Shown here piece after piece: positions 1,778 to 31,667 of a DNA stretch of 56,724 bases. This stretch comes from Nitrospiria bacterium. Its GTDB lineage: Bacteria > Nitrospirota > Nitrospiria > JACQBZ01. Location of the stretch: the NCBI GenBank assembly GCA_035517655.1, contig DATIYJ010000021.1:1-56724 (forward strand), written 5' to 3'. The notes under the pieces were generated by a model, which was given only the letters and a program-made list of their open reading frames with translations, searched no databases and was not told where the DNA came from. The translations under genes were made by a program, and so were the position numbers. Every line of letters starts with the position of its first letter. Position 1 is the stretch's first letter.

Positions 1778-2128
1778 ATGGCTACGGAAAAAATCGAGCG
1801 GATCAAGAAAGTGCTGGCCGTCGAGCCGGAGAGCGAAATGCTCTGGTTCAGCCTGGGACAGGCTTATCTGGCCGAGGAGTCGGCCGCTTCATTCGACTTG
1901 GCGGTCGAGGCGTTTGAAAGGGCGATCGCGCTGAAGCCGGACTATACCGTCGTTTATGAACATCTCGGCGGCGCGCTGGAAAAGATCGGAAAGGTGGAAA
2001 CCGCCAAGGGGATCTACCGAAAAGGGATCGAGATCGGCCGGAGAACGCGCGACATGATCCCGCTGGAACGGATGACGGCCCGCCTGCACCGTCTCGAAAA
2101 AGGTCCCCGGATCGCACCGGCCGGATGA
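1778..2128 (+). CDS. TPR-repeat protein
   Basis: The 116-residue protein consists almost wholly of tetratricopeptide helices. The stretch LWFSLGQAYLAEE..FDLAVEAFERAIALKPDYTVVYEHLGGALEKIGK gives two clear TPR units (about residues 25-85). There is no signal peptide or membrane segment, so it is cytoplasmic and probably a protein-protein adaptor. It is the first gene behind a good promoter. Its stop overlaps an upstream ATG of the deformylase frame and lies 17 bases before the better deformylase start, so the two are translationally linked. The partner protein cannot be told from sequence. Confidence 0.85.
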   Translation: MATEKIERIKKVLAVEPESEMLWFSLGQAYLAEESAASFDLAVEAFERAIALKPDYTVVYEHLGGALEKIGKVETAKGIYRKGIEIGRRTRDMIPLERMTARLHRLEKGPRIAPAG

Positions 2129-2145
2129 ACGATCGGGGAAATTCA

Positions 2146-2697
2146 ATGTCGATCCTGAAAACATCAAAACTGGGCAACCCGATCCTGCGGCAGATTGCGA
2201 AAGAGGTCCCTCTTTCGGAATTGAAAAACCCGGCGACCCAGAAACTGATCGACGACATGATCGAAACCATGCATGAATACGACGGCGTCGGCCTGGCCGC
2301 CCCCCAGGTGCACGAGTCCAAACAGATCGCCGTGATCGAGGTCCATAACAGCAAGCGGTATCCCTGGGCGCCCGACGTTCCATTGCTGATCCTGGTCAAC
2401 CCGGTCTTCCTCTCCGAATCGGATGAAACCGTCGACGGATGGGAAGGCTGTCTGAGCGTGGAAGGCTTTCGCGGGAAAGTCCCCCGGTCCAAGACCGTGG
2501 CGGTCCGTTTTTGGGACCGCAACGGAAAAGAGCGGAGGCTGGAGGCCGAGGACTTTCCGGCCGTGGTCATCCAGCACGAGCTGGACCATCTCGCCGGCAA
2601 GGTCTTCCTGGACCGGATGCGGGACTTCTCCACCCTGACCCACCTCAAAGAATACGAGCGGTTTTGGATGAAACCGCAGGATGAAGAGACGGATTGA
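2146..2697 (+). CDS. def: Peptide deformylase (first of two)
   Basis: This enzyme removes the N-formyl group from nascent proteins using a catalytic metal ion. All three family motifs are present: GVGLAAPQ (residues 47-54), EGCLS (metal ligand Cys102) and QHELDH (His144, Glu145, His148). The 183-residue length is normal. I take the ATG at 2146, preceded by CGGGGAA at proper spacing, over the ATG at 2125, which overlaps the TPR stop and adds seven residues unlike the family. The stop TGA shares its last base with the ATG of the downstream exporter. A second, diverged deformylase lies at 16463-16957. Confidence 0.95.
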   Translation: MSILKTSKLGNPILRQIAKEVPLSELKNPATQKLIDDMIETMHEYDGVGLAAPQVHESKQIAVIEVHNSKRYPWAPDVPLLILVNPVFLSESDETVDGWEGCLSVEGFRGKVPRSKTVAVRFWDRNGKERRLEAEDFPAVVIQHELDHLAGKVFLDRMRDFSTLTHLKEYERFWMKPQDEETD

Positions 2698-4421
2698 TGC
2701 GCTCTCTCTTTCGTGTCATACGCTACATCAAACCGTATCAACACCTGGCCTATCTGACCCTGGCCTGCGCCGTGCTCACCACCTCGCTCGAGATGGTCCC
2801 CCCCTGGCTGCTCAAGCGCGTGATCGACGACGTGATCCGCGGCGGCAACCTCCCGCTGCTCAAGTGGCTGATCCTCGGGCTGGTCGGGGCCCATGTGGGC
2901 CGGAACCTGCTGAACTCGGCGCGCATCCGGTTCAACAACACGCTCGAGCAGCGCGTGATCTACGACATGCGCGACCAGATCTATCGGGCCCTTCAGCGGC
3001 TTTCCGTGAGCTATTACGAAAACCGCGCGACGGGGGAGATCATGTCCCGCGTGGTGAACGACGTGAACAACCTGGAGCGGATCTTCATCGACGGCGTGGA
3101 GGCCCTCGTGATGGCCGGCCTCACGCTGTTGGGAATCATGACGGTGCTTTTTTTCCTGAACTGGCCGTTGGCCCTGATCGCCCTCGTCCCGATCCCCTTT
3201 CTGGTTCTGGGCGCGACGGTCTTCACCACGCGGGTCCACAAACTCTATCACGTCATCCGACACCAGGCGGCCCAGCTGAACGCGCTTCTTCAGGACAGCA
3301 TCTCGGGGATCCGCGAGACGATGAGTTTCAATCGCGAAGCGTATGAGGTGGAGCGGTTCAACCGGCAAAGCCTGGAATACAGCCGCGGCAACCTGCGGGT
3401 GGCGCGCATCTGGTCGGTCTATTCTCCCGGAATGATCCTGATCGCCTCGACCGGCACCCTCCTCATTCTCTGGTTCGGCACCCATGAGGTATTGGACGGC
3501 CGGATGACGGTCGGCGGCCTCGTGGCCTTCCTGAGCTACCTGGGATTGTTCTACACGCCGATCAACCAGATCCATTCGGTGAATCACATGCTCCAGCAAT
3601 CGCTGGCGTCGGGAGAGCGCGTCTTCGAGATCATGGACGCCGTGCCGGAGGTTTCCGACCGGCCCGGCGCGGCGGCTCTCCCTCAAAAGGTCCGGGGGTT
3701 CGTGGAGTTCAAGAACGTTTCGTTCCACTACCGCCCGAACGCCCCGGTCCTCCAGCAGATCTCGCTCCAGGCCTTTCCGGGTGAAAAGATCGCGCTGGTC
3801 GGTCCGAGCGGGAGCGGGAAGAGCACGATCATCAAACTGCTGATGCGATTGTACGACGTCGATACGGGCGTGATCACGATCGACGGGCACGACGTCCGCG
3901 ATCTGAAACTTTCGGATCTCCGGGATCAGATCGGCGTCGTGGCCCAGGAGCCGTTTCTGTTCAACGGAACGGTGCGCGAGAACATCCTCTACGGACGCCT
4001 CGACGCCACCGAAGAAGAGGTGAGCGCGGCGGCCGAGGCGGCCCGGGCCCACGAGTTTGTTCTCGCGCTCCCGGACGGCTACTCGACCTGGATCGGCGAG
4101 CGCGGCGTGAAGCTTTCGGTCGGCCAGAAACAGCGGATCGCCATCGCGCGGGCGCTGCTCAAGGATCCGCCGATCATCATCTTCGACGAGGCCACCTCCA
4201 ACATCGACACCGAGACCGAGGCCAAGATCCAGGAGGCCCTGGACGCCCTGACCTACCATCGCACGACCTTCATCATCGCCCATCGCCTCTCGACCCTCAA
4301 GCACGTCAACAAGATCCTGGTCGTTCAAAACGGACGGATCATCGAGCGGGGGACCCATGAGGAGCTCCTCGCCGGGGGCGGCCTGTACACGCTGCTGTAT
4401 GATGCGCAGTTTCAGATGTAG
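2697..4421 (+). CDS. ABC exporter of the MsbA/lipid flippase type
   Basis: This is a half-transporter of 574 residues with an N-terminal six-helix membrane domain (about 1-310) and a C-terminal ATPase. The ATPase has Walker A GPSGSGKST, a signature LSVGQKQR that departs from canonical LSGGQ, Walker B IIIFDEATSNID and the switch region IIAHRLST. It would work as a homodimer in the inner membrane exporting a lipid or hydrophobic compound. MsbA (lipid A-core flippase) is the closest functional model, but substrate cannot be read from sequence. It overlaps the deformylase stop by one base; a TTG at 2694 is an alternative start. Its TAG stop is formed by the terminus of the repeat at 4419-4457. 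Confidence 0.88.
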   Translation: MRSLFRVIRYIKPYQHLAYLTLACAVLTTSLEMVPPWLLKRVIDDVIRGGNLPLLKWLILGLVGAHVGRNLLNSARIRFNNTLEQRVIYDMRDQIYRALQRLSVSYYENRATGEIMSRVVNDVNNLERIFIDGVEALVMAGLTLLGIMTVLFFLNWPLALIALVPIPFLVLGATVFTTRVHKLYHVIRHQAAQLNALLQDSISGIRETMSFNREAYEVERFNRQSLEYSRGNLRVARIWSVYSPGMILIASTGTLLILWFGTHEVLDGRMTVGGLVAFLSYLGLFYTPINQIHSVNHMLQQSLASGERVFEIMDAVPEVSDRPGAAALPQKVRGFVEFKNVSFHYRPNAPVLQQISLQAFPGEKIALVGPSGSGKSTIIKLLMRLYDVDTGVITIDGHDVRDLKLSDLRDQIGVVAQEPFLFNGTVRENILYGRLDATEEEVSAAAEAARAHEFVLALPDGYSTWIGERGVKLSVGQKQRIAIARALLKDPPIIIFDEATSNIDTETEAKIQEALDALTYHRTTFIIAHRLSTLKHVNKILVVQNGRIIERGTHEELLAGGGLYTLLYDAQFQM

Positions 4422-4457
4422 GGGCGCATGGTGGGGCGACGCATGCGTCGCCCCTAC
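4419..4457. repeat. Palindromic TAGGGGC-type repeat at the exporter stop
   Basis: The element begins TAGGGGCG, where TAG is the stop codon of the ABC exporter. It contains a perfect palindrome at 4433-4454 (arms GGGGCGACGCA and TGCGTCGCCCC) and ends CCCCTACGG. Its termini match the ends of the longer repeats at 6075, 12249 and 44199. Confidence 0.75.
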
Positions 4458-4516
4458 GGAAGATTGATTGATGTCCGGGGTGCGATCTGATAGAGTCGGT
4501 TCCGGAGAAGGGCGGC

Positions 4517-4876
4517 ATGGATAAATTGATCATCGACCATCTTGAATTTTACGGCCACTGCGGGATCACGCCGGAGGAACAGAAAACCGGCCAGCGTTTT
4601 TCGCTGGATCTGGAAATCGGATGCGACGTCCGTCGCATTGCGCAAACGGACCGGCTCCGCGACGCCTTCGACTACGCCGCGATCTCCCGACGGCTGATCG
4701 AGATCGCCCGCAAAGAACAGTTTCGGTTGATCGAAACCATGGCCGAACGATTGGCCGAGGTCGTGCTTCGGGAATTCGGCGCGCAAAAGCTGACGCTGCG
4801 TTTGAGAAAAACCGCCCCGCCCATTGAGCCGATCATGGCCTACTCGGCGGTCGAGATCCATCGCGAGGCTCCCTGA
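4517..4876 (+). CDS. folB: Dihydroneopterin aldolase
   Basis: FolB cleaves 7,8-dihydroneopterin to 6-hydroxymethyl-dihydropterin and glycolaldehyde in folate synthesis. The 119-residue length and layout fit: FYGHCGITPEEQKTGQRF (the Y-G-x-x-G-x-x-x-E-x-x-x-x-Q-x-F family pattern) at the N-terminus, LRDAFDYAAI in the middle, LIETMAERLAEVVL, and the C-terminal LRKTAPPI strand. The start has a good Shine-Dalgarno (GGAGAAGGGC). A weak promoter-like pair (TTGATG..TAGAGT) precedes it. The next ATG begins two bases after its stop, so it is coupled to the LON-domain gene. Confidence 0.93.
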   Translation: MDKLIIDHLEFYGHCGITPEEQKTGQRFSLDLEIGCDVRRIAQTDRLRDAFDYAAISRRLIEIARKEQFRLIETMAERLAEVVLREFGAQKLTLRLRKTAPPIEPIMAYSAVEIHREAP

Positions 4877-4877
4877 C

Positions 4878-5555
4878 ATGGCCCAGGACCATCTGCCCAA
4901 AATCATCCCGCTGTTTCCGTTGCCTGCGACCGTTCTTTTTCCCCAAACCTACCTCCCGCTTCATATCTTTGAAACGCGATACCGGGAAATGGTCGAGGAT
5001 GCCCTGAATGATTCCGCGGAAGCGGCCCGCATGATCGGCATGGTCCTGTTGAAAGAAAACTGGGAAAAGGACTATTACGGCGGTCCGCCGATCCACCCGA
5101 TCGGCTGCGTCGGCCGGATCATGCAGGTCCATCGCTTGAACGACGGCCGCTACAACCTGGTTCTGTTCGGCCTGGACCCGTTCCGCGTCAAGAAACAGTT
5201 TTATGACAAAAGCTACCGCCGGGGCTGGATTGAAGCGGCCCGTCCGTCGGGACAGGCCGCCGCCGCGTTGCCGGACCCCCTCCGGAGCGACCTGATCCGT
5301 TCGCTGCAGGGCTATGCGCAGCTCCGCGGCTGGGAAAATCAGATCAACACCCTGCTCGATATGCGCTTGGACGATGAACGGCTCGTGCAACTGCTCTCCT
5401 CCGAGCTGGACACGACCCCGATCGAGAAGCAGTTCCTCCTCGAATCCGAGGACCTCGTGCAGCAATGTCGCCGGTTGATCGACCTGCTCGGATTTATGAC
5501 GGATGAACACCGCTCCCGAAAGGAAGCGAACCGGCCCTGGAATATCGGAGACTAA
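4878..5555 (+). CDS. LON substrate-binding domain protein
   Basis: This 225-residue protein contains only the N-terminal substrate-recognition domain of Lon proteases; there is no ATPase or protease domain. [31 protein letters not shown] is the classic start of that domain, followed by [30 protein letters not shown]. Such stand-alone proteins are common in bacteria and their role is not established; peptide or protein binding is inferred. The start is set by the ATG two bases after folB; in-frame upstream codons overlap folB and do not look like the family. Confidence 0.9.
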
Positions 5556-18741: not shown

Positions 18742-18770
18742 ATCATATCATGTTGCAAGAGATCTTGCAC
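18742..18770 (-). promoter_or_regulatory. thiI promoter with overlapping inverted repeat
   Basis: The -10 is TATGAT (18747-18742). A poor -35 (GTGCAA, 18770-18765) lies 17 bases upstream. An inverted repeat TGCAAGA-GA-TCTTGCA (18754-18769) covers the -35 and half the spacer, as a repressor or activator site would. The start codon follows six bases after the -10. Confidence 0.5.
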
Positions 18771-18835
18771 ATGAACCGGATTCGAGTCGGGAAGGGTGAA
18801 TCGCAGGCGCACGGCCGGAAGAACAAGACGCGCCC

Positions 18836-20872
18836 CTACCCGGACGGCTTCAAGATCCGGAGGAAGGTCTCGACAATACGGGGATCGAACTGACGGCCGG
18901 CGTTTTGTCGAAGCTCCTCCGCCGCCGCCTCGACGGTCAGCCGGGGTCGATAGGGGCGGACGGAGATCATCGCCTGGTAGGCCTCGACCACGCCGAGAAC
19001 ACGGGCCAGAAACGGGATCTCCTCCCCCCGCAGACCGTTCGGGTAGCCGTGGCCGTCGTAACGCTCATGATGATAGAGAATCGCCGGGAGGACCCCGTCC
19101 AATTGCGTTGATTCTTTGGCCAGCATTTCGGCCAGGGCGGGATGGGCCTGGACAATCTTTTTTTCCTCCAGGGAAAGCGGTCCGGGTTTATTGAGAAGGG
19201 TGTCGGGAACGCTGACCATCCCGATATTGTGCAACAGGCTGGCCAATTGCAGACTCTTCTTGTCATTTTCGCCCAGATTCAAGGCCTCCGCGAGATGCAT
19301 CGCGAACTGGACAACGGCTTCGGTGTGGCCCCGCGTGTAGGGGCTTTTTCCGTCGATGGCCGTTGCAAGGTCCCAGAACGTTTTCATCTTCGGATTGTTC
19401 AGCATATCGGTGAGCTTCCGCTGGTCTTTCTCAATGGCCGATTTGAGCGTGTCGCTGTAACTGCAAACCTTGTTTCGTCCCCCCTCCTTGGCGAAATAGA
19501 GGGCTTCGTCGGCGACCGTGATCAGCCGCTCGCGGGAATCGGCATCCGCCGGAAACGAGGCCATGCCGATGCTGACCGATAAACGCGCCGGGTGTCCGGA
19601 GGCCCCGGCGAAGCGCTCTTCGTCGATCGACCCCCGAATCCGCTCCGCGACGATTTTGGCCCGTTGGCCGGTCGTCTCCGGAAGGATGACCGTAAACTCC
19701 TCGCCGCCGTATCGGGACGCGATGTCCACGTTCCGGATCGATTGTTGGATCACCTTCGCGATTTCCTTTAAGACGGCATCCCCCATCGGATGGCCGTAGG
19801 TGTCGTTGAAGGATTTGAAATGATCGATATCCAGCATCAGCATGGAAAAGTCTTTTCCGTAACGCTTTCCCCGTTCCACTTCTTCCCCCAGCCGCCTCTG
19901 AAATTCCCGATGATTGTAGAGACCGGTCAAGCCGTCGGTAATGGCCTGCCGCTCCACATCTTGCAAGAATCGGGCGTTGTCGATCGCCACGGCCGCATGA
20001 ACGGCGAGCGTGGACAGGGGATCCATGTCTTCCGGGGAAAAGGCGGATGCGCCCTGCGTATTCACGGCGGCCAGGATCCCTTCGACGATTCCCTGCCGAA
20101 CCATCGGAACCGCGAGAAGGTTTCTCATGGAAGGTCGCAGAGCCGGCGTCGCTTTCCAGAGGGGATGTTGTTCGGGCGTTTCAATCATCACCGGGCGCCG
20201 CTCGGTCCGGGCCAGAGTCCAAAGACCCAGGGAGGCCGCCGGACACGGAAAGGAACAGCGATCCAGCTCGATGCCGGAAGCGATCGCGGAACGGATTTCG
20301 TTCCGTTCCGGGTCGATCAGGAGAAGAAGAGCCCCTTCGGTCTGCAAGAGTTGTCGCACACCCTCGACCAGGGATTGGACCAGGACATCGATCTTTCGTT
20401 CTTTTGTAACGGCGAGGGAGACTTCGTAAAGTCGGCGGGCCCGCAAGGTGGCCTCGTCCAAACGGTTCTTGAGCTGGCGCTTTTCAACCACCTTTTGAAC
20501 CAGTCGGGGGAGGATCTCCTGATAATTTTTTGTTTTGAGGATGTAATCGTACGCCCCCTTTTTCATGGCCTCGACCGCGACCGTTTCATCGCCCTGTCCC
20601 GTGACCATGATCACCGGAACCGTATACCGGCGTTCTTGAATCCGATCCAAAACCTCCAGACCGTTCATGCGGGGCAGACTGTAGTCCAGAATCATGGCGT
20701 TGAACGGGGACCCGGCGAGCGCGTCCAACGCGGCTTGGCCGTTCGCCACGGTCGTGATTCGAACGGAGGGAGCCTGCTTTTCAAAAACGGTACGGGTCAG
20801 CTCCGCCTGATCCGGATTATCTTCGACTAAAAGCAGATGCACGGTTTCCCCCGGCATGGACGGATGCGTCAC
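18836..20872 (-). CDS. REC-GAF-GGDEF-HD-GYP signalling protein with degenerate HD-GYP
   Basis: A 678-residue cytoplasmic protein with four modules. REC is residues ~10-130 (phospho-acceptor Asp63). GAF is ~160-305. GGDEF is ~310-470, with active motif GGEEF at 389-393 and an inhibitory RxxD site (Arg380-Asp383) five residues before it. HD-GYP is ~500-675. The HD-GYP retains HHERYDGHGYP (601-611), but the HD pair is His548-Asn549 and the downstream Asp of the ADAYDAM-type motif is Glu630 (VVEAYQAM). Diguanylate cyclase activity is expected; phosphodiesterase activity is doubtful. It overlaps the CheY-like gene by four bases and ends the five-gene operon. Its TAG stop begins a TAGGGGCG repeat fragment. 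Confidence 0.93.
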   Translation of the reverse strand: MTHPSMPGETVHLLLVEDNPDQAELTRTVFEKQAPSVRITTVANGQAALDALAGSPFNAMILDYSLPRMNGLEVLDRIQERRYTVPVIMVTGQGDETVAVEAMKKGAYDYILKTKNYQEILPRLVQKVVEKRQLKNRLDEATLRARRLYEVSLAVTKERKIDVLVQSLVEGVRQLLQTEGALLLLIDPERNEIRSAIASGIELDRCSFPCPAASLGLWTLARTERRPVMIETPEQHPLWKATPALRPSMRNLLAVPMVRQGIVEGILAAVNTQGASAFSPEDMDPLSTLAVHAAVAIDNARFLQDVERQAITDGLTGLYNHREFQRRLGEEVERGKRYGKDFSMLMLDIDHFKSFNDTYGHPMGDAVLKEIAKVIQQSIRNVDIASRYGGEEFTVILPETTGQRAKIVAERIRGSIDEERFAGASGHPARLSVSIGMASFPADADSRERLITVADEALYFAKEGGRNKVCSYSDTLKSAIEKDQRKLTDMLNNPKMKTFWDLATAIDGKSPYTRGHTEAVVQFAMHLAEALNLGENDKKSLQLASLLHNIGMVSVPDTLLNKPGPLSLEEKKIVQAHPALAEMLAKESTQLDGVLPAILYHHERYDGHGYPNGLRGEEIPFLARVLGVVEAYQAMISVRPYRPRLTVEAAAEELRQNAGRQFDPRIVETFLRILKPSG

Positions 20873-21294
20873 TCGTCGGTCTTCAGACCGCGGTTGGTCA
20901 GCAGCCAGTAGAACTTCAGCGCCCTCACCTTCTCCATGAAATCCTGAAACTTGACCGGCTTGGTGATATAGCTGTTGGCGCCGCCGCTGTACGACTTGAC
21001 GATCTCTTCCTCGCGGTCGGACGTCGTGAGCATGATCACCGGAATCATCCGAAGGTCCTCGTCCTGCTTGACGGCTTTTAAGACATCGATCCCGCCGACC
21101 TTGGGAAGGTTGATGTCCAAAAGGATGAGGCCGGGACGGGCCGCGGACGCATACTTTCCGATCCGGAACAGATAATCGAGCGCTTCCCGTCCGTCCTTGA
21201 CCCAGTAGACCCGATTCGCCACTTGGCCTTCGTCGAGAACCTGGCGGGTCAGTTCGGCGTGATCGGGGTTATCTTCAACCAGAAGAATGTCCAT
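20869..21294 (-). CDS. CheY-like single-domain response regulator (Rcp1 type)
   Basis: A 141-residue receiver domain with no output domain. The acidic pocket is LLVEDN near the N-terminus, Asp60 (LILLDINLPK) is the phospho-acceptor, and TTSD and the Lys of ITKPVKF complete the site. The sequence type (DILLVEDNPDHAELTRQVL..YLFRIGKY) is that of regulators paired with cytoplasmic or HAMP histidine kinases. It lies between the kinase (48 bases upstream) and the GGDEF/HD-GYP protein (4-base overlap). It may relay or buffer phosphate between them. Confidence 0.92.
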   Translation of the reverse strand: MDILLVEDNPDHAELTRQVLDEGQVANRVYWVKDGREALDYLFRIGKYASAARPGLILLDINLPKVGGIDVLKAVKQDEDLRMIPVIMLTTSDREEEIVKSYSGGANSYITKPVKFQDFMEKVRALKFYWLLTNRGLKTDE

Positions 21295-21342
21295 CGGTTT
21301 CCTCCGAATTAACGTATCACAGTCCGAAGAATTGTCAATCGC

Positions 21343-22818
21343 TCACGCCTTTGCGCGAGGAAATTGGACGAAGAACGTCGTCCCCTGCCCCTTTTGGGAT
21401 TCGAGCCGGATCTTCCCGCCTGCGAGATCGACGATCTTTTTAACAATCGAGAGACCGATCCCCGTTCCCTCCACTTCGACCTCCTGGAGTCTCTGGAAAA
21501 TGCCGAAAATCTTTTCGTGATAGGCGGGATCGATCCCGATGCCGTTGTCCTTGACGTAGAACTCCACTTCTTTCTCCATCTCGCGCCCCCCGATTTCGAT
21601 CCTCGGCCGGGCCTGGTCCCCCATGAATTTGGCGGCATTCGTGATCAGGTTTTGGAACAACTGATTCAGATGGCCGCGGCCGAATACAAACGCAGGAAGC
21701 GGAGATTGGAGGACCACGTCGATCCCCTTGGCCCTGAATCTTTCTTTATGCACCTCGAGGATTTCCCCGATCACGGTCCGGACATCCGACATCTCCGGGT
21801 TCTCCTGCATCCGCCCGATTCTGGAAAGGGTCAGAAGATCGTTGATCAGCTGTTCCATGAAATTCGTATTCGCGACGACCCTCTCGAGATAATGTTTCCC
21901 CTTTTCATCCACCTTATCTCCGTAACTTTCCAGGAAGAGGGAGGCCATCCCCTGAATAGAAACGACCGGCGATTTCAAATCGTGCGAAACGGTGTACACA
22001 AACCCTTCCAACTCCTTCGTTCGAAGCTTGACCTGATTTTCCAAATTTTGATGTACAAAGGCCAGATCATGGCTCATTTGATTGAAGCTCCGGGCCAAGT
22101 CCCCCAATTCGTCGTGCGAAAGAACCGGCACGGTCGCGCCGTACTCGCCTTGACCGATTCGTTCGGTCCCCTGGGCGAGAACCCGTATCCGTAACACGAT
22201 CCGTCGCATAAAAAACAACGTCATCAGCAGCACGGCCGTTCCGCTGATTATCATAATGACGATCACCCGCTGTGAAATCCGTTCGATTGTCTTCAAAACG
22301 TCGCCGATCGGCAGCCCCAAACGCAACGTGCCCAGACGCGTGGTCTCTCTCAGCTCCTTGCCGCCGAAGAGGAGAAACTCCTCGCCGGATCGGGCCTCTT
22401 GGACCGCCCAGACCGGGAGAGCTATGTCCAAAACGGGCTGGCCGTTTATCATGATTCGCTCGTATCTCGGCCGGTCGGAACGCAAGTCCGATACCGTCAA
22501 GGGGTCCCGATAGATCTGCCCCTTTTCGACCACGTTGGTATGGGCCAAGACCCGGCCGGTTGGATCCAGCGCCATGGCGTAAACGGCGCCGGTACGTTCA
22601 AGTCCGGATTGCAAGGCCGAAAGCAACGCCTGCTCGTTCTCGGTCTGAATTCCCGATGCGGTCACGGCCGGTAGGCTCTTCGTTGCCAAAAATCCCCGCT
22701 TAACCACCTCCTCCAATAAAACGGCATGGACGACATAGGTCGAAAACCAAATGACCAGCCCGGCCGACAAAGAACTCACCAGAATTAAAAAAATGACCAC
22801 CTTGGTTTGAAGCCTCAT
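21343..22818 (-). CDS. Membrane sensor histidine kinase
   Basis: A 491-residue kinase. Transmembrane helices at ~7-31 and ~184-205 enclose a periplasmic sensor region of about 150 residues. HAMP is ~205-258. The dimerisation domain has SHDLKSPV with His279 as the phosphorylation site. The ATPase part has NLITNAAKF (N box), DNGIGIDP (G1), FGIFQRL (F box) and GTGIGLSIVKKIV (G2). It overlaps the periplasmic binding protein gene by four bases and precedes two response regulators, so the binding protein plus kinase plus regulators look like one pathway. Confidence 0.94.
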   Translation of the reverse strand: MRLQTKVVIFLILVSSLSAGLVIWFSTYVVHAVLLEEVVKRGFLATKSLPAVTASGIQTENEQALLSALQSGLERTGAVYAMALDPTGRVLAHTNVVEKGQIYRDPLTVSDLRSDRPRYERIMINGQPVLDIALPVWAVQEARSGEEFLLFGGKELRETTRLGTLRLGLPIGDVLKTIERISQRVIVIMIISGTAVLLMTLFFMRRIVLRIRVLAQGTERIGQGEYGATVPVLSHDELGDLARSFNQMSHDLAFVHQNLENQVKLRTKELEGFVYTVSHDLKSPVVSIQGMASLFLESYGDKVDEKGKHYLERVVANTNFMEQLINDLLTLSRIGRMQENPEMSDVRTVIGEILEVHKERFRAKGIDVVLQSPLPAFVFGRGHLNQLFQNLITNAAKFMGDQARPRIEIGGREMEKEVEFYVKDNGIGIDPAYHEKIFGIFQRLQEVEVEGTGIGLSIVKKIVDLAGGKIRLESQKGQGTTFFVQFPRAKA

Positions 22819-23705
22819 GGCACGACCTTGTCGAGGCTCTTCACGACGTCGGGCGGAATGAGGAGTCCCGCATTCGTTGCAGCTTTGAGGCTTAGAACGG
22901 TCTCGACCTTTTCCGGATATACCGGATCCTCAACCGGTTTCTTCGCCAGGACCCGCCGTGCGGCCGAAGCCGCCGCCCGACCGATTTCGCGGAAGCTCGC
23001 CGATATTGAAGCAGTCGCTCCTTGTTCCACGAGCCCCGCAGCGGGAACATACAGCGGGACTTTGTTGGACCAGGAGAACTCCTTGAGCACGGCGAAACTC
23101 TGGGAATTGATCAGAAACGGATCGGGCATCAACCAGATGGCATCGACATCCTTATAAATGGATCGAAGTCGCTCCGGCAGTTCATCCGGACTTTTCAACC
23201 GCTCGGGAACGATCTCGATCTCCATCGGCGCCGACGCCTCCTGCATCCTCTCGACGTTATCGTCGATGGAGTTGGAAACCCAGAGCACCGCCAGTCTTTT
23301 CAACGCGGGCTGGATGTCTTTGAGCTTCGGAACGATCGCGCGTTCATCCGTAAGCATCTCGATCTGGACCGAAGGCCCGGGACGTTTTGCGAATTTAAAA
23401 TCGATCCCCGGAGCCATGGCGTAGATCAAGGTTACGGCTTCCGGATAGGGGAACAGGGCGGCTTTTCCGCCGAAGGAAACAACGACGCGGGTGCCGGGGG
23501 GAAGTTTGGGACTATTCTCTGATAGGTTGTAGGTAGGGACGGATTCCCCGAACACCTCTTGGAACCCTTCGAGGGCTTCCCGGTAAGGCACCAGGTTCGA
23601 GCTCAGGACCGCCACAACGTCCTGGGCCCACCCGGTGCCGGATGCGGCGAGCCACATTCCAGCGGTGAGAACCCAAGTTAGATACTTAGCGCTGCCCATT
23701 TCCAT
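22815..23705 (-). CDS. Periplasmic ABC-type substrate-binding protein (PF04392-like)
   Basis: About 296 residues with a signal peptide (KYLTWVLTAGMWLAASGTGWAQ, cut after AQ or nearby), then DVVAVLSSNLVPYREALEGFQEVF. This matches the start of the ABC_sub_bind family (TrpX-like). LKRLAVLWVSNSIDDNVERM and VDAIWLMPDPFLI are further family-like segments. No permease or ATPase gene is adjacent. It lies between a TonB receptor and a histidine kinase, so it is probably a ligand sensor. The start is the Met at 23705 or 23699; the longer open frame reaches back into the TonB receptor gene and would bury the signal peptide. Confidence 0.82.
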   Translation of the reverse strand: MEMGSAKYLTWVLTAGMWLAASGTGWAQDVVAVLSSNLVPYREALEGFQEVFGESVPTYNLSENSPKLPPGTRVVVSFGGKAALFPYPEAVTLIYAMAPGIDFKFAKRPGPSVQIEMLTDERAIVPKLKDIQPALKRLAVLWVSNSIDDNVERMQEASAPMEIEIVPERLKSPDELPERLRSIYKDVDAIWLMPDPFLINSQSFAVLKEFSWSNKVPLYVPAAGLVEQGATASISASFREIGRAAASAARRVLAKKPVEDPVYPEKVETVLSLKAATNAGLLIPPDVVKSLDKVVP

Positions 23706-23736
23706 TTGGGGGGAACTTTCAGGGTTCAAAAACTCG

Positions 23737-25677
23737 CTAGTCGAACGTGATCGAGACACCGCCGGTGTAGGTCCGGGGAACTGCCAGGCCGTCGGCGAAT
23801 TCCACATGCCGTGCCTTCAGCAGGTTCTGCCCGGCTATGTAAAACTCAGCATTCTTATACCAGGGCGAGGCGTACGCGAGGCGTGCATCCAGTCGCCAGT
23901 ACGTTGGCACAGTGACCGAATCGGTGATATTGGTGATGAAGTAACTGTCCTTATATCCCAGGTTGAAACTCCCCGAGAATCCGCCGCCGAAGTCGGCCAT
24001 CGCGCCCAGGTTCACCTTGTGCGGCGGGGTATTCTTGGTGATCTCACCCTCGTTGCCGCTTTTGTCCGTGATGTGTTCGTACGTGTAGTTTACGTACATC
24101 GACTGTCTCGTCGTGAACCGATATTTGAATTGCAGTTCCGCTCCCTTCGCAACAGCCTGGTTGGTGTTGACAAAGCCCAAGGCCGCCACGGACGGATTGT
24201 TCGGCCATGGCCCCAGATCGGCGTCATCATCGATTCCGTCAATGCGGGTGTAAAAAAGGTTCGACTCGGCTTCCAAGTGATGCTCCAGCCAATGGCCGAG
24301 ATATCCGACCTCGTACGATGTCAGTTTCTCGGGTTTCAGATCGGGATTTCCCACCCTCGCCACGGAATCATTCAGCTGTTGGTTGACAAAAAGTTGTCGG
24401 AGAGTCGGAACGGTATGCGCAACGGAATAAGTCGCCCGGAAGGATTGGTTCTCCACCGGCGCCCATAGGGATGCTAATTGGTAGTTTGCGTGCGGCTTCT
24501 CGGTTCGAGTCCCTTCGAAGGCCAAGGCTCCCACGAGCGTTACCTGATCGGTGACGCGCCCTGTCTGGTTGAAAAATGCGCGGCGGATGGCGTCATTCAC
24601 ATCGGGATGTCCAACGAATGTATTCTGAGAATCGACCCGGGTGCCTTGATAATTCAACCCATAGGTGCTGTTTAAACGTCCATTCCCCCAGTCGATGCGG
24701 TGAAGGATTTCTTCGTCAAATCGGTCGTTCTGAAGATGGTTGATGTCGCCGGTGGGAGTCGGGTCAATGATGTTCGTGAATGTGGAATGAGAACTTGAAA
24801 TCTCCAAATGCGAGTTGTCCGAGATTTTGGCCTGGAATTTGAGCATTTCGAAATGCTGGCTAAAGTTATCTTGTGACTCCTGAGCATTGGCAAACCCGGA
24901 GGTGTTCCACGAGCCTCCGGCAAAGAACTCCAAATCGGATCCATTCGTCAGGTCCCGCCGGAGTCGCATGTTGGCTTTGTTGCTGTGAAGAAAATCATTT
25001 GTCGCTGTTCCGCCCGTAGCGCTGTCAAACGGTCCCTGCTCCAAGTAACTATGACTGAGTCGGAAGTCAAACGCGCGGATCGAACTATTCAGAGCTTCAG
25101 ATGTCATCACGGTGCCTTGGTTCCCACCGGCCCCCTGGATCGTGGCGGTCGTTGCCCCGCCGGGCTTTTTGGTAATAATATTGATGACCCCCAAGGCCGC
25201 CCCGGTGCCATAAAGGGCCGCATTGGGCCCTCGAATGATCTCAATGCGGTCGATGTCTTGAATTCCGATGGGAAGCTGGGCCCAATAGACCCCTCCCGAG
25301 TCCGTTGCATAAACGCTTCGGCCATCCACCAAAACTAAAATGTTACGGGCAAACGCTTCGTCAAAGCCGCGAATCGAGACGATCGCACGATTACCGAGCA
25401 CCGTCTGGTGGCCGTCCAATATGTCCATGCCCAACCGAAAGCGCATAAGGTCCCAGAGATTCGTGACTCCCGATGCTTTGATTTCCTCGGTCGTGATGAC
25501 TTCCACCGCTACCGGCGCCTCCTGGACGGATTGGGGACGACGGGAGGCGGTGGTCACTTGGGCTTCCTCTTGAAAGAATTCCAGTGTTTCGTCGGTTGCG
25601 GCTAATACGTCAAACACATTGGTGAACAGAAGGCAGGTAAAAATAAGGAGGCGGAACATTCCATGCGGGCTTTTCAC
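23737..25677 (-). CDS. TonB-dependent outer membrane receptor
   Basis: A 646-residue outer-membrane receptor. The signal peptide (MFRLLIFTCLLFTNVFDVLA) precedes a TonB-box-like acidic segment, and the plug domain follows: TTASRRPQSVQEAPVAVEVITTEEI, NRAIVSIRGFDEAFARNILVLVDGRSVY, and DRIEIIRGPNAALYGTGAALGVINIITKKPG. The C-terminal ~480 residues form the beta-barrel, with typical alternating strands up to the end (GGVSITFD; the usual terminal Phe is one residue in). It resembles vesicle-type or cobalamin/siderophore receptors; substrate is unknown. It is the first gene of the five-gene signalling operon and has its own promoter about 130 bases upstream. Confidence 0.93.
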   Translation of the reverse strand: MKSPHGMFRLLIFTCLLFTNVFDVLAATDETLEFFQEEAQVTTASRRPQSVQEAPVAVEVITTEEIKASGVTNLWDLMRFRLGMDILDGHQTVLGNRAIVSIRGFDEAFARNILVLVDGRSVYATDSGGVYWAQLPIGIQDIDRIEIIRGPNAALYGTGAALGVINIITKKPGGATTATIQGAGGNQGTVMTSEALNSSIRAFDFRLSHSYLEQGPFDSATGGTATNDFLHSNKANMRLRRDLTNGSDLEFFAGGSWNTSGFANAQESQDNFSQHFEMLKFQAKISDNSHLEISSSHSTFTNIIDPTPTGDINHLQNDRFDEEILHRIDWGNGRLNSTYGLNYQGTRVDSQNTFVGHPDVNDAIRRAFFNQTGRVTDQVTLVGALAFEGTRTEKPHANYQLASLWAPVENQSFRATYSVAHTVPTLRQLFVNQQLNDSVARVGNPDLKPEKLTSYEVGYLGHWLEHHLEAESNLFYTRIDGIDDDADLGPWPNNPSVAALGFVNTNQAVAKGAELQFKYRFTTRQSMYVNYTYEHITDKSGNEGEITKNTPPHKVNLGAMADFGGGFSGSFNLGYKDSYFITNITDSVTVPTYWRLDARLAYASPWYKNAEFYIAGQNLLKARHVEFADGLAVPRTYTGGVSITFD

Positions 25678-25806
25678 GCGCCGGCCGATCGTTTACAAGT
25701 TCAAAGCGCCGACATCTTGTTCGTCACTCCGCTTGTCTTCCCAATCTGAAACCAACCTAAAATTTTTCTTAAGTCATTGACAGTTCTGTTGTATGCAACC
25801 AGTAAA

Positions 25807-25834
25807 AATGTACCACATTCCTGTATCCTGTCAA
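25807..25834 (-). promoter_or_regulatory. Promoter of the TonB receptor signalling operon
   Basis: Minus-strand -35 TTGACA (25834-25829) and -10 TACATT (25812-25807), spacing 16. It lies in the 286-base gap 25678-25963, which otherwise holds no gene that I can support. The leader would be about 120 bases and has no recognisable cobalamin or other riboswitch core. Confidence 0.55.
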
Positions 25835-25963
25835 TCGGCGAAGAAACCGTGATTGATGAGGAGTCAAGCGATGGTAGGTGCAATGAGTTCATACAACCGG
25901 ATGGGGGCTACGATGGGAGCGGAGACAGGGAGCGGGACATAACGGAATTCTATAGGGATGCGA

Positions 25964-28328: not shown

Positions 28329-28814
28329 TTATTTATCCCGGCACGCTTTCTCCAAAGCGGCGGCGTCGAGTTTTTTCATCTGAAGCACCGCCTTCATGAC
28401 GCGTTCCGATTGGGCGGGATCGGCGTCTTTCATCATCTCGCCCAAAACGGCGGGAACGATTTGCCAGGATAGACCGTACCGGTCTTTAAGCCAGCCGCAT
28501 TGCCCTTTGGCTCCGCCCTCGGAGAGCTTCTCCCACAGCTCATCCACTTCTTTCTGCGTCTTGCAGTTCACGATGAAGGACACGGCTTCCGTGAATTTGA
28601 ACACCGGCCCGCCGTTCAAGGCCATGAATTCCTGCCCGTCGAGCCGGAAGGTCACGGTCATGACCGTTCCCTTCGGTCTTCCGGAAACCCTTGCCCCTGC
28701 CTCCCCATAACGAGTGACGCTCACGATCTTTGAATTCTTGAAAATGGAGGCATAAAAATTTACGGCTTCCTCCGCGTTGCTATCGAACCACAAACATGGG
28801 ACGAATTTTTGCAT
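28329..28814 (-). CDS. VOC-family protein (PhnB-like)
   Basis: A 161-residue vicinal oxygen chelate protein: MQKFVPCLWFDSNAEEAVNFYASIF is the PhnB-type opening, followed by FMALNGGPVFKFTEAVSFIVNC and GQCGWLKDRYGLSWQIVPAVL. Such proteins are often labelled 3-demethylubiquinone methyltransferase-like, but that name is historical and no methyltransferase motif is present. The ATG at 28814 has AGGTGG upstream; the seven extra residues of the longer frame are not family-like. It is the last gene of the ECF42 operon, and VOC proteins are frequent members of such operons. Confidence 0.87.
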   Translation of the reverse strand: MQKFVPCLWFDSNAEEAVNFYASIFKNSKIVSVTRYGEAGARVSGRPKGTVMTVTFRLDGQEFMALNGGPVFKFTEAVSFIVNCKTQKEVDELWEKLSEGGAKGQCGWLKDRYGLSWQIVPAVLGEMMKDADPAQSERVMKAVLQMKKLDAAALEKACRDK

Positions 28815-28831
28815 GATGTGAACCACCTTTC

Positions 28832-29359
28832 TCACTTTTCAGCGATGGTCTTCAGGTTGGCCAGTCCCGTCTCGAAGTCCTTGCCGACGATGCGGTCCAT
28901 ATTGAAAAAGACGTGGATGACCTTCGCCATGTAGGGAAGGGGACCGTGCATCGCCCACGTCACCTTTGTGGTATCGCCTTCGGGTTCCAGCGTGAACTCG
29001 GCGACGTTGTGGCCTTCAAACGGCTTGATGAAATCCAGTTTGATCGTGACCTGAGAAGGCGGCGACGACTCTGTAATCTCCATGCGCCCTTTTCCCACTT
29101 TGTTGTTGCCTTCCCACTCGTACACGGCGCCTTTGCCGTCGGACGCGCCGCTGTGGATCCTCTGCATCGCGGGGTCCATTTTCTCCCAGGGCGACCAGGC
29201 GCCCCAACGGTGGAAATCGTTGATAAGCGCAAAGATCCTCTCCGGAGGGGCTTTGATGCTCGCCGAGCGCCGGACACGGAACGTGTCGGGCCGGGTCGCG
29301 GCATAGATGAGAAGAGCGGCGATCAGAACGACCGCCGCGATGGCGATGATCTTTATCAT
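28832..29359 (-). CDS. SRPBCC (polyketide cyclase/START-like) protein with N-terminal membrane helix
   Basis: A 175-residue protein. An N-terminal hydrophobic helix (IIAIAAVVLIAALLIYAA) anchors or exports it. The SRPBCC domain follows: FRVRRSASIKAPPERIFALINDFHRWGAWSPWEKMDPAMQR, then VTIKLDFIKPFEGHNVAEFTLEPEGDTTKVTWAMHG. This fold makes a deep pocket for lipids or aromatic compounds; ligand unknown. It lies 24 bases downstream of a YciI/DGPF gene and overlaps the longer frame of the VOC gene. It is a typical accessory gene of ECF42-type operons. Confidence 0.87.
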   Translation of the reverse strand: MIKIIAIAAVVLIAALLIYAATRPDTFRVRRSASIKAPPERIFALINDFHRWGAWSPWEKMDPAMQRIHSGASDGKGAVYEWEGNNKVGKGRMEITESSPPSQVTIKLDFIKPFEGHNVAEFTLEPEGDTTKVTWAMHGPLPYMAKVIHVFFNMDRIVGKDFETGLANLKTIAEK

Positions 29360-29383
29360 GGATTCCCCCCCTTCTGCTCATCC

Positions 29384-29776
29384 TTATTTTGTTCTTGAAC
29401 GCCGCCGCTCGCTTTCCGCCACGAGTTCCGTCAAATCCGCGGCCGGGCGAATCTCGAAGGGCCCTCCCCGCACACCGGGGTGTTTGGACATCAACTGGAC
29501 GGCGTGGTTCAGATCCCTGGCCTCGAGAATCAAGATGCCGCCCAACTGCTCCTTCGTTTCGGCGTAGGGGCCGTCGGTCACGGAGGCCCTGCCGTTCTGA
29601 AACCGCAGCGTCGTGGCGTTCCGGGGCGGCTGCAGCGCTTCCCCGCCGACAAAGTGCCCGTTCTTCCGGAGCACGTCGTCGTAGGCGAAGCAGTCGTCGA
29701 CGAAGACGTTCCGCTCGCTCTCGGACATCGTTTCCCATTTTTTCGGATCCATGTATCCAAGGCAAATATATTTCAT
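29384..29776 (-). CDS. YciI/DGPF-domain protein (second)
   Basis: A 130-residue protein of the YCII-related (DGPF) family. The defining motif reads [29 protein letters not shown], with Tyr in place of Phe in the DGPF core. [11 protein letters not shown] is the usual N-terminus. DGPF proteins are small ferredoxin-like-fold proteins found almost always beside ECF42 sigma factors. Their biochemical role is not established. It lies 50 bases after the first DGPF gene in the same transcript and may form heteromers with it. Confidence 0.9.
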
Positions 29777-29826
29777 GATATTTCCCTCCCTGTCTTGTAT
29801 TTTGATCCGGCCCGGCCCTTACGGCC

Positions 29827-30273
29827 TCACGACGGCTTGCGCTTTTCGACCTGTGCGCGCACCGTGGGATTGTCCGCGGCCTTCCGGACGTCCGGTGGAA
29901 AGTCCGACATCTCGAACACCTGGCGAATCTCGATGACGTCGCCCTCTACCGCGGGGCATCGCTTCGCCCACCGGACCGCCTCGTCCTTCGACTTGAGGTC
30001 GAGCATCCAATAGCCGCCGATCACTTCCTTCGACTCGATGAAGGGCCCGTCGGTCGCGCTCGGCTTCCCTCCCGCAAATGAAACGCGCGCGCCCTTCGAG
30101 ATCGGGTGAAGCCCGTCGAGCGAGATGAGCGCTCCGGCCTTCGTCAGCTCCTCGTTGAACTTCATCATCTTGTCGACGGCGTCGGCCGGCGGGGCGAATC
30201 CTTCACCCGCCCTCTCTTCGGCCGGGGTGTCGGGTTGGTACACTCTCGGAATCATCATCAGCATGAATCGCAT
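29827..30273 (-). CDS. YciI/DGPF-domain protein (first)
   Basis: A 148-residue DGPF protein with the canonical motif TDGPFIESKEVIGGYWMLDLKSKDEAVRWAKR. The N-terminus MRFMLMMIPR is standard. AAAGGAG precedes the ATG. It is the first gene behind the ECF-type promoter at 30361-30389 and is separated from the sigma gene by a leader with a strong hairpin. The promoter places it as the main target of the sigma factor encoded just upstream. Confidence 0.92.
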   Translation of the reverse strand: MRFMLMMIPRVYQPDTPAEERAGEGFAPPADAVDKMMKFNEELTKAGALISLDGLHPISKGARVSFAGGKPSATDGPFIESKEVIGGYWMLDLKSKDEAVRWAKRCPAVEGDVIEIRQVFEMSDFPPDVRKAADNPTVRAQVEKRKPS

Positions 30274-30294
30274 GACCGTATCTCCTTTTGGTTT

Positions 30295-30334
30295 GGAGCC
30301 GGGTTTCCAGGCCGCCTCCGGCGGCCCCGGCTCC
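30295..30334 (-). other. Nested hairpin in the leader of the DGPF genes
   Basis: Outer arms GGAGCCGGG and CCCGGCTCC (30295-30303 / 30326-30334) and an inner perfect stem GGCCGCC-TCC-GGCGGCC (30310-30326, sharing one base with the outer arm). It lies between the predicted transcript start (about 30355) and the Shine-Dalgarno. No U-run follows, so it is more likely an mRNA-stability or processing element than a terminator. Confidence 0.6.
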
Positions 30335-30360
30335 GTGTTGGATTGACTGTCTACACTTCA

Positions 30361-30389
30361 TAGTCGTTCCGGGGAGCCCGAAATCGACA
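30361..30389 (-). promoter_or_regulatory. ECF42-type promoter upstream of the DGPF genes
   Basis: On the minus strand TGTCGA (30389-30384) is followed after 17 bases by CGACTA (30366-30361). The ECF42 group is reported to use TGTCGA at -35 and a short CG[A/T]C-like -10. The site lies in the gap between the sigma gene and its first DGPF gene, as expected for autogenous operon control. Confidence 0.6.
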
Positions 30390-30419
30390 ACGGGGGAATA
30401 AAAAATTTCGTTCGCCGTT

Positions 30420-31667
30420 TCAGTCCGGCAGTTCGCCCAGCCGCCGATCGAGAAACCGCCGTTCCGGCTCAAGCCGCGTGAGGTCAAGAGCCCGCCGGTA
30501 GGAGGCCCGGGCTTCGGCCGTCCGCCCCAGCCGCCGGCACAAGTCCGCACGCGCCGAGTGGGCCAGGTGGTAATCCCGCAGATCGCCGCGCGCCAGAATG
30601 GCGTCGATCAAGGCCAGGCCGGCCTCAGGCCCGTCCCGCATGGCCACCGCCACGGCGCGGTTCAGCTCCACCACGGGCGACGGATCCATCCGTGCCAGCA
30701 GGTCGTACAGGACGACGATCTGGGCCCAGTCCGTCTCGGAAGCGTCGGACGCCTCGGCGTGCACCGCCGCGAGCGCGGCCTGCAGGCTGTAGGGGCCGAA
30801 CCGGCGCGTCGTGAGCGCCCGTTCCACAAGCGCCAATCCCTCTTTGATCTGGCCCCGATTCCAAAGCGAACGGTCCTGATCCTCCAGCAGAACCAGGTCC
30901 CCGGTCGGCGAGGTGCGCGCGGCGCGTCGTGATTCCTGCAGCAGCATCAGCGCAAGGAGCCCGACCGCCTCCGGCTCCGGCAGCCATTCGACGAGCAGAC
31001 GGCCGAGGCGGATCGCCTCGCCCGAAAGATCGGCCCGCGTCAGCGACGCGCCCGATGACGCGGCGTAGCCCTCGTTGAAGACGAGATAGATCACCCGCAG
31101 CACCGCGGCGAGCCGGTCCGGCAGCTCGGCGTGGGCGGGCACCTGGTAGGGAATGCGCGCGTCGCGGATCTTCGCCTTGGCGCGCACGATGCGCTGCGCC
31201 AGGGTGGGCGCGGGGGTGAGGAAGGCGCGGGCGATCTCCTCGGTCGTGAGGCCGCAGACCTCGCGCAACGTGAGGGCCACCCGGGCGTCCGGCGACAGGG
31301 CCGGGTGGCAGCAGGTGAAGACGAGCCGCAGCCGGTCGTCCTCGACGCTCTCGTCTTCCCCCGCCTCGGCATCCTCCACGGCCGCGACAGGCTCGGCGAC
31401 GTCGTCCAGCGCGGTGAAACGGGCGCCCCGTCGCAGGTTGTCGATCGCCTTGAAGCGTCCGGCCGAGACCAGCCAGGCCCGTGGATTGGCGGGCAGCCCC
31501 TCGCGCGGCCACTGCTCCAGCGCCGTCCGGAAGGCCTCGTGCAGCGCCTCCTCCGCGAGGTCGAAGTCGCCGAGCAGGCGGATCAGCGTGGCGAGGACGC
31601 GGCGCGACTCGGCGCGGTAGACGGCGTCCACCTTTTCGCGCATGCGTTCGGAGGTCTCCTCGCTCAT
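30420..31667 (-). CDS. ECF42-type RNA polymerase sigma factor with TPR-like C-terminal extension
   Basis: A 415-residue sigma factor. Regions 2 and 4 occupy the first ~190 residues ([52 protein letters not shown], then [36 protein letters not shown]). [18 protein letters not shown] is a signature segment of this group. A ~220-residue C-terminal extension includes [25 protein letters not shown] and TPR-like helices ending [27 protein letters not shown]42 factors lack an anti-sigma partner and use this extension for control. The DGPF pair downstream confirms the assignment. Confidence 0.92.

Follow-up and report, generated by a model that had tools for sequence, protein, structure and literature searches.

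A TonB-dependent receptor, a PF04392 binding protein and a histidine kinase in a candidate trans-envelope sensory operon of a Nitrospiria bacterium

TonB-dependent receptors (TBDTs) and periplasmic binding proteins of the PF04392 family are routinely annotated as uptake genes; what might they do in an operon shared with a histidine kinase and a predicted diguanylate cyclase (DGC)? The question is raised by five genes in a 56,724-nucleotide stretch of DNA (the window), which is contig C21 of the genome of a groundwater-type Nitrospirota bacterium (2.65 Mb, 99% complete) of the same class as Candidatus Manganitrophus; the named relatives among its matches are Nitrospirae and Manganitrophaceae metagenome-assembled genomes. 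The genes occupy the minus strand between 25677 and 18836, separated by 31, -4, 48 and -4 bases as an earlier note on this DNA had stated, and encode a TBDT (23737–25677; 646 amino acids, plug and beta-barrel), a TrpX-like type-I periplasmic substrate-binding protein of family PF04392 (SBP; 22815–23705; 296 amino acids including the signal peptide), a membrane histidine kinase (HK; 21343–22818; 491 amino acids, with an sCache/PDC-like periplasmic domain between two transmembrane segments, then HAMP, HisKA and HATPase_c), a single-domain Rcp1-type response regulator (REC; 20869–21294; 141 amino acids) and a REC-GAF-GGDEF-HD protein, the predicted DGC (18836–20872; 678 amino acids). The domain identities that the note had given to the first four were borne out by Pfam, and a Pfam scan of the block likewise detected no ABC permease or ATPase. 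We consider it probable, at roughly 60%, that the operon encodes a sensory system spanning the envelope and leading from the TBDT through the SBP and the HK to cyclic di-GMP (c-di-GMP).

This reading is well supported by comparison, the sequences themselves showing gene order, domains, intact catalytic residues, a degenerate HD motif, the absence of a permease, phylum-wide SBP-kinase linkage, co-inheritance of these two and fusions of the sensor head to c-di-GMP domains. Seven orthologous SBPs (L028–L034; 47–69% identity) come from three further genera and families. In all seven loci the SBP gene directly precedes the same sensor head, and a permease is present in none, so that the linkage to a permease/ATPase pair, which the earlier note had named as grounds for abandoning a sensory role, is absent from the orthologues; against its other ground, scattered genes, SBP and sensor head stay together in all of them. 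The proposal of sensing rather than import is supported, whereas conservation does not extend to the order of all five genes: the HK is immediately followed by the REC and GGDEF-HD genes in just three loci, namely the window, L030, where all five genes are ordered as in the window, and, with one gene inserted, L028 of the same genus. The inserted gene of L028 lies between HK and REC and encodes a REC-PAS-GAF-HD-GYP protein with an intact HDIGK (L028:5994–7865 and 4135–5519 cover this gene and the GGDEF gene); the GGDEF gene there is frameshifted, or the assembly is in error. In L031, L032 and L034, a cytosolic kinase-REC-GGDEF-HD cassette is found upstream of TBDT-SBP-HK.

The link to c-di-GMP is supported by independent loci in which the sensor half is fused directly to GGDEF-EAL. 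In L033, from the Manganitrophus family, the TBDT and SBP are kept and the sCache/HAMP head, about 51% identical to that of the window over 254 amino acids, is joined to PAS-GGDEF-EAL, which replaces the kinase half. Judged by its domains, this is a natural domain swap in which one input would drive c-di-GMP domains either via a kinase or directly. Direct fusions to GGDEF-EAL or HD-GYP extend to other classes of the phylum: L188 and L189 have the arrangement TBDT-SBP-HAMP-GGDEF-EAL, and L178 and L179 have SBP-dCache-HAMP-HD-GYP. All five surveyed modules of the window's family, including a paralogue on contig C8 of the window's genome, contain c-di-GMP enzymes.

To place the locus in its wider setting, we surveyed 91 SBP genes from all families of the class (Nitrospiraceae being sampled) and 44 from other classes of the phylum, 135 in total; the loci are related by descent and paralogy, so the counts are not independent, a TBDT was counted if it lay within 4.5 kb of the SBP gene, and the rules for output motifs are crude. 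PF04392 is present in 87 of 117 class genomes. An HK-type gene follows the SBP gene in 86 of the 91 class members and overlaps it in 49 of 90, a TBDT is nearby in 64 of 91, and a permease in a single case. Among the other classes an HK-type gene comes directly after the SBP in 30 of 44, most of the remaining 14 having the HK beyond a tandem SBP or a wider gap, and again one permease was found. The two permease loci of the phylum (2/135; L073 and L180, each with permease and ATPase) are both distant ones. Outputs encoded in the same cluster (n = 90) were sigma-54 activators in 31 class modules, c-di-GMP enzymes in 13, and hybrid kinases or none in 46. From these gene orders the conserved unit is read as TBDT-SBP-HK with an exchangeable output, REC-DGC here and sigma-54 activators or hybrid kinases elsewhere. 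Unusual arrangements were also seen: L180:5084–8899 encodes a 1271-amino acid PF02653 permease fused with three tandem PF04392 domains, with an ATPase gene next in line, which makes it a one-piece importer of unusual build, and in L182, L183 and L186 two or three tandem PF04392 genes precede a single HK (dCache confirmed in L182), as if sharing one sensor.

A wider search of genome contigs gave no match with a single-sequence query and six loci with an alignment query; two Elusimicrobia loci (L136 and L138) encode the SBP, a recognisable sensor head and a TBDT in another order (SBP-HK-TBDT). A scan of a plasmid collection returned only four weak matches, all unannotated.

In the window's genome, Plug proteins number 7, HisKA stretches 25 and PF04392 proteins 2, and each of the two PF04392 genes is flanked by a TBDT gene and an HK gene; with numbers this small, chance placement of TBDT-SBP-HK is very unlikely. 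Over 42 non-redundant modules, SBP distances correlated with those of the sensor (r = 0.90), the kinase (0.92) and the TBDT (0.75), with partial correlations of 0.38, 0.47 and 0.27, respectively, species history adding to all of them. A same-genus genome and three members of the family lack the whole block (approximately 18745–25960) at its site between cupin and ThiI, where the flanks are intact, and we therefore conclude that its gain or loss involved the entire unit.

How would a signal cross the envelope? We propose that the TBDT carries a scarce ligand across the outer membrane; this ligand would probably be a small organic molecule or a metal complex. The Pfam matches of the receptor are Plug and TonB_dep_Rec, and its nearest solved relatives are Cir and BtuB. 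The SBP, having no transporter to serve, would bind the ligand in the periplasm. Its reading frame opens with the ATG at 23705, and a signal peptide comes next (...SGTGWAQ/DVV); the longer start given by the open reading frame caller (23807) would overlap the TBDT gene. The protein matches ABC_sub_bind (PF04392) with 57.6 bits over the C-terminal 60% of the model, its best NCBIfam match is TrpX, and an AlphaFold2 model (pLDDT 85) is closest to the tryptophan-bound structure 3LFT, although with a TM score of only about 0.6 the ligand class cannot be transferred. A search for riboswitches or other RNA elements as clues to the ligand found none in the window besides one tRNA, and in the seven related loci only tRNAs and a piece of a group II intron.

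The liganded, or possibly the empty, SBP would then dock on the sCache domain of the HK. Pfam assigns sCache_3_2 (a weak match of 31.2 bits against a cut-off of 28.4), HAMP, HisKA and HATPase_c; the catalytic boxes are all intact, with the HisKA motif SHDLKSP, and the sensor domain is predicted to adopt an sCache/PDC fold (pLDDT 78). The kinase in turn would phosphorylate two receivers, the single-domain Rcp1-type REC and that of the GGDEF protein. REC matches Response_reg, retains the phosphoacceptor Asp and the conserved Thr/Lys, and is classed by sequence as Rcp1 type (E about 1e-28 to RcpA).

The GGDEF protein would then make c-di-GMP. It matches Response_reg, GAF, GGDEF and HD_5, and both the GGEEF active motif and the RxxD I-site, which serves product inhibition, are intact (RNVDIASRYGGEEF at residue 380), as expected of a DGC with its GG(D/E)EF motif. 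The earlier description of this protein as REC-GAF-GGDEF-HD-GYP proved right for the REC, GAF and GGDEF domains and the GYP half but not for the HD motif: HHERYDGHGYP is kept, whereas LLHNIGM, with HN, stands where HDIGK is expected, so that the HD plus GYP pair of a phosphodiesterase is incomplete. The same HN is common to most relatives in the family. When an HD-GYP enzyme lacks the metal-binding Asp, this speaks against its acting as a phosphodiesterase. Because the GGEEF motif and I-site are intact and this Asp is lost, the protein is predicted to be a DGC whose net effect is c-di-GMP synthesis; the HD domain probably lacks phosphodiesterase activity and may have a binding or regulatory role. 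Pairs of REC and REC-GAF-GGDEF-HD genes also occur with other kinases and away from any TBDT or SBP (L055 and L059), elsewhere in the window's genome (L054, with part of the upstream kinase masked) and with a different gene order (L058 and L061). The occurrence of the pair with other kinases indicates that the five-gene operon joins a TBDT-SBP input to a kinase-Rcp1-cyclase cassette. Within this scheme we infer the flow of ligand from TBDT to SBP, the SBP-sCache contact, the direction of the signal, the phosphotransfer partners and the synthesis rather than breakdown of c-di-GMP.

Several observations weigh against the scheme, and those concerning the TBDT point to another explanation, in which SBP and HK form the sensor, the ligand reaches the SBP via porins, and the TBDT is a target or passenger, an uptake gene that is under the control of the circuit or accompanied by it. 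By distance correlation, the TBDT is the partner most loosely tied, SBP and HK co-varying more tightly than SBP and TBDT. In L030 it has been replaced (24% identity, compared with 51% for the SBP and 63% for the HK), and in L032 and L034, both from the Manganitrophus family, it is lost or fragmented (L034:9190–9684, L032:8238–8955) while the kinase is intact. Many class modules consist of SBP and HK with no adjacent TBDT, over a quarter having none within 4.5 kb, some of these at contig ends, and the TBDT may be dispensable for sensing. We nevertheless regard this explanation as unlikely, since a TBDT does accompany the majority of class modules, the Elusimicrobia loci and both modules of the window's own genome, its placement by chance is very improbable with 7 Plug proteins in that genome, and the outputs are often c-di-GMP enzymes rather than TBDT repressors. 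The L034 locus has a further peculiarity, a large internal deletion in the SBP gene beside the intact kinase gene.

Further points against the sensory scheme concern its ends. The sensor need not be the SBP, as small ligands are often bound directly by sCache domains; L029 has no output gene nearby; a second, cytosolic kinase sits in the REC-DGC cassette of L031, L032 and L034; and the sharing of the REC-DGC pair with other kinases makes cross-talk possible. Direct sensing of a small molecule by the sCache domain, with the SBP in an accessory role (competitor, chaperone or negative regulator, for instance), would agree with the sensor model, whose nearest domains are those of CitA, DcuS and WalK, some of which bind ligands directly, and with the sCache match, weak as it is, lying above the cut-off. 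Yet the top Foldseek match of that model is a WalK-YycH model, and WalK-type sCache domains also serve as docking sites for partner proteins; moreover, the SBP is kept with the sensor head despite the output swap in L033 and across phyla, and the two co-vary strongly, which together make direct sensing quite improbable. An SBP serving an ABC importer encoded elsewhere, with the adjoining kinase reporting on that importer, is suggested by the importer subunits among PF04392 proteins (TrpX, the best NCBIfam match) and by the permease and ATPase retained in L073 and L180. A census of PF02653 led us to reject an unlinked permease as partner: in the window's genome such permeases are limited to two neighboring genes on contig C25 in the LivHM arrangement, sequences of this kind in relatives are LivH/LivM, and PF02653 is missing altogether from at least 15 genomes that encode a PF04392 protein. 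We accordingly give the unlinked importer hardly any weight.

The preferred reading, sensing across the envelope, brings the locus close to SBP-dependent two-component sensors such as TorT/TorS, LuxP/LuxQ and AioX/AioS, in which a transporter-less SBP is encoded beside a membrane HK with a periplasmic domain. As in those systems, the SBP adjoins a membrane HK in the relatives and no ABC importer is linked; in contrast to them, the SBP is of PF04392, the sensor is an sCache domain, a TBDT belongs to the cluster and the output is REC-GGDEF. TrpXYZ importers have a homologous SBP with the same predicted fold (3LFT), but the cognate PF02653 permease and ATPase are not found at the window. In FecA/FecR/FecI surface signaling a TBDT also takes part in inward signaling, whereas here the Pfam scan gave only plug and barrel for the TBDT, with no STN signaling domain, and no FecR or ECF sigma factor in the operon. 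FecA-type signaling was rejected on these grounds; information would pass via SBP and kinase. The Rcp1-type REC and REC-GGDEF output recall phytochrome kinase-Rcp1 pairs and PleD-like proteins, from which the operon differs in a kinase input that is periplasmic rather than a phytochrome and in the additional GAF and degenerate HD domains.

CHASE8 is the domain of YfiN. A report on Pseudomonas describes a tripartite c-di-GMP system in which YfiR controls the membrane cyclase YfiN (PMC4655355). YfiBNR resembles the window in having an outer-membrane component, a soluble periplasmic regulator and an inner-membrane sensor that sets c-di-GMP; it differs in that YfiR is a PF13689 protein, YfiB a lipoprotein and YfiN itself the cyclase, compared with a PF04392 protein and an intervening phosphorelay in the window. 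The Pfam scan found neither YfiR (PF13689) nor a CHASE8 cyclase in the window operon; PF13689 (YfiR/DUF4154) and CHASE8 occur in a separate cluster of the genome on contig C60 (L219:163–11183), together with HAMP-PAS and histidine kinase domains behind the CHASE8, a REC-GGDEF-EAL protein and a TBDT. Because of the YfiR-YfiN control in that account, the C60 cluster may be seen as a striking parallel of the same layout. This locus also encodes a 1213-amino acid protein with a receiver-like beginning, and its YfiR is paired with a kinase, not with a YfiN cyclase.

Four of the seven TBDTs of the genome lie in signaling clusters (the window, C8, C60 and C6). On C8 the order is GGDEF-HN, TBDT, SBP, hybrid HK and then REC-GAF-HD-GYP (L036, 544 amino acids, intact HDIGK). 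On C6 (L220:5153–13859), a sigma-54 activator and a TBDT in tandem are followed by an SBP_bac_5 gene that overlaps an HK gene by 4 bases, a further SBP family beside a kinase. The TBDT on C36, by contrast, belongs to an importer of the ordinary kind, alongside Peripla_BP_2, FecCD and ATPase, and so illustrates the form of a transport locus in this genome.

The principle of an SBP-dependent kinase is already known; its combination with TBDT, PF04392 and swappable outputs at phylum scale appears to be undescribed, and a description of PF04392 with TBDT and kinase was not found in the openly licensed full texts searched. A broader view, which we hold tentatively and would not back at even odds, is that nearly the whole PF04392 family of Nitrospirota has switched from import to sensing and forms a general TBDT-SBP-sensor front end, with TBDT partners acting as sensory conduits only, interchangeable outputs (c-di-GMP enzymes, sigma-54 activators or hybrid kinases) and a ligand that need not reach the cytoplasm. 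If true, many uptake annotations in Nitrospirota (nitrite oxidisers, manganese oxidisers and groundwater lineages) would denote sensors, and cells would spend TonB energy on sampling an external molecule to set biofilm-type or transcriptional programs. The natural fusions and the output swap offer clean, testable constructs.

Upstream of the operon, a promoter-like site (TTGACA-16-(TG)TACATT; 25807–25834, minus strand) lies about 130 bases before the TBDT start; it is a consensus match only, and 6 such sites were found in the region where 3.7 were expected by chance. Elsewhere in the window, small open reading frames at 28329–31667 look PhnB-, SRPBCC- and YCII-like by eye and lie beside a sigma-70 family protein with DUF6596 and TPR, and an 836-amino acid open reading frame on the minus strand (1848–4358) has zero Pfam matches.

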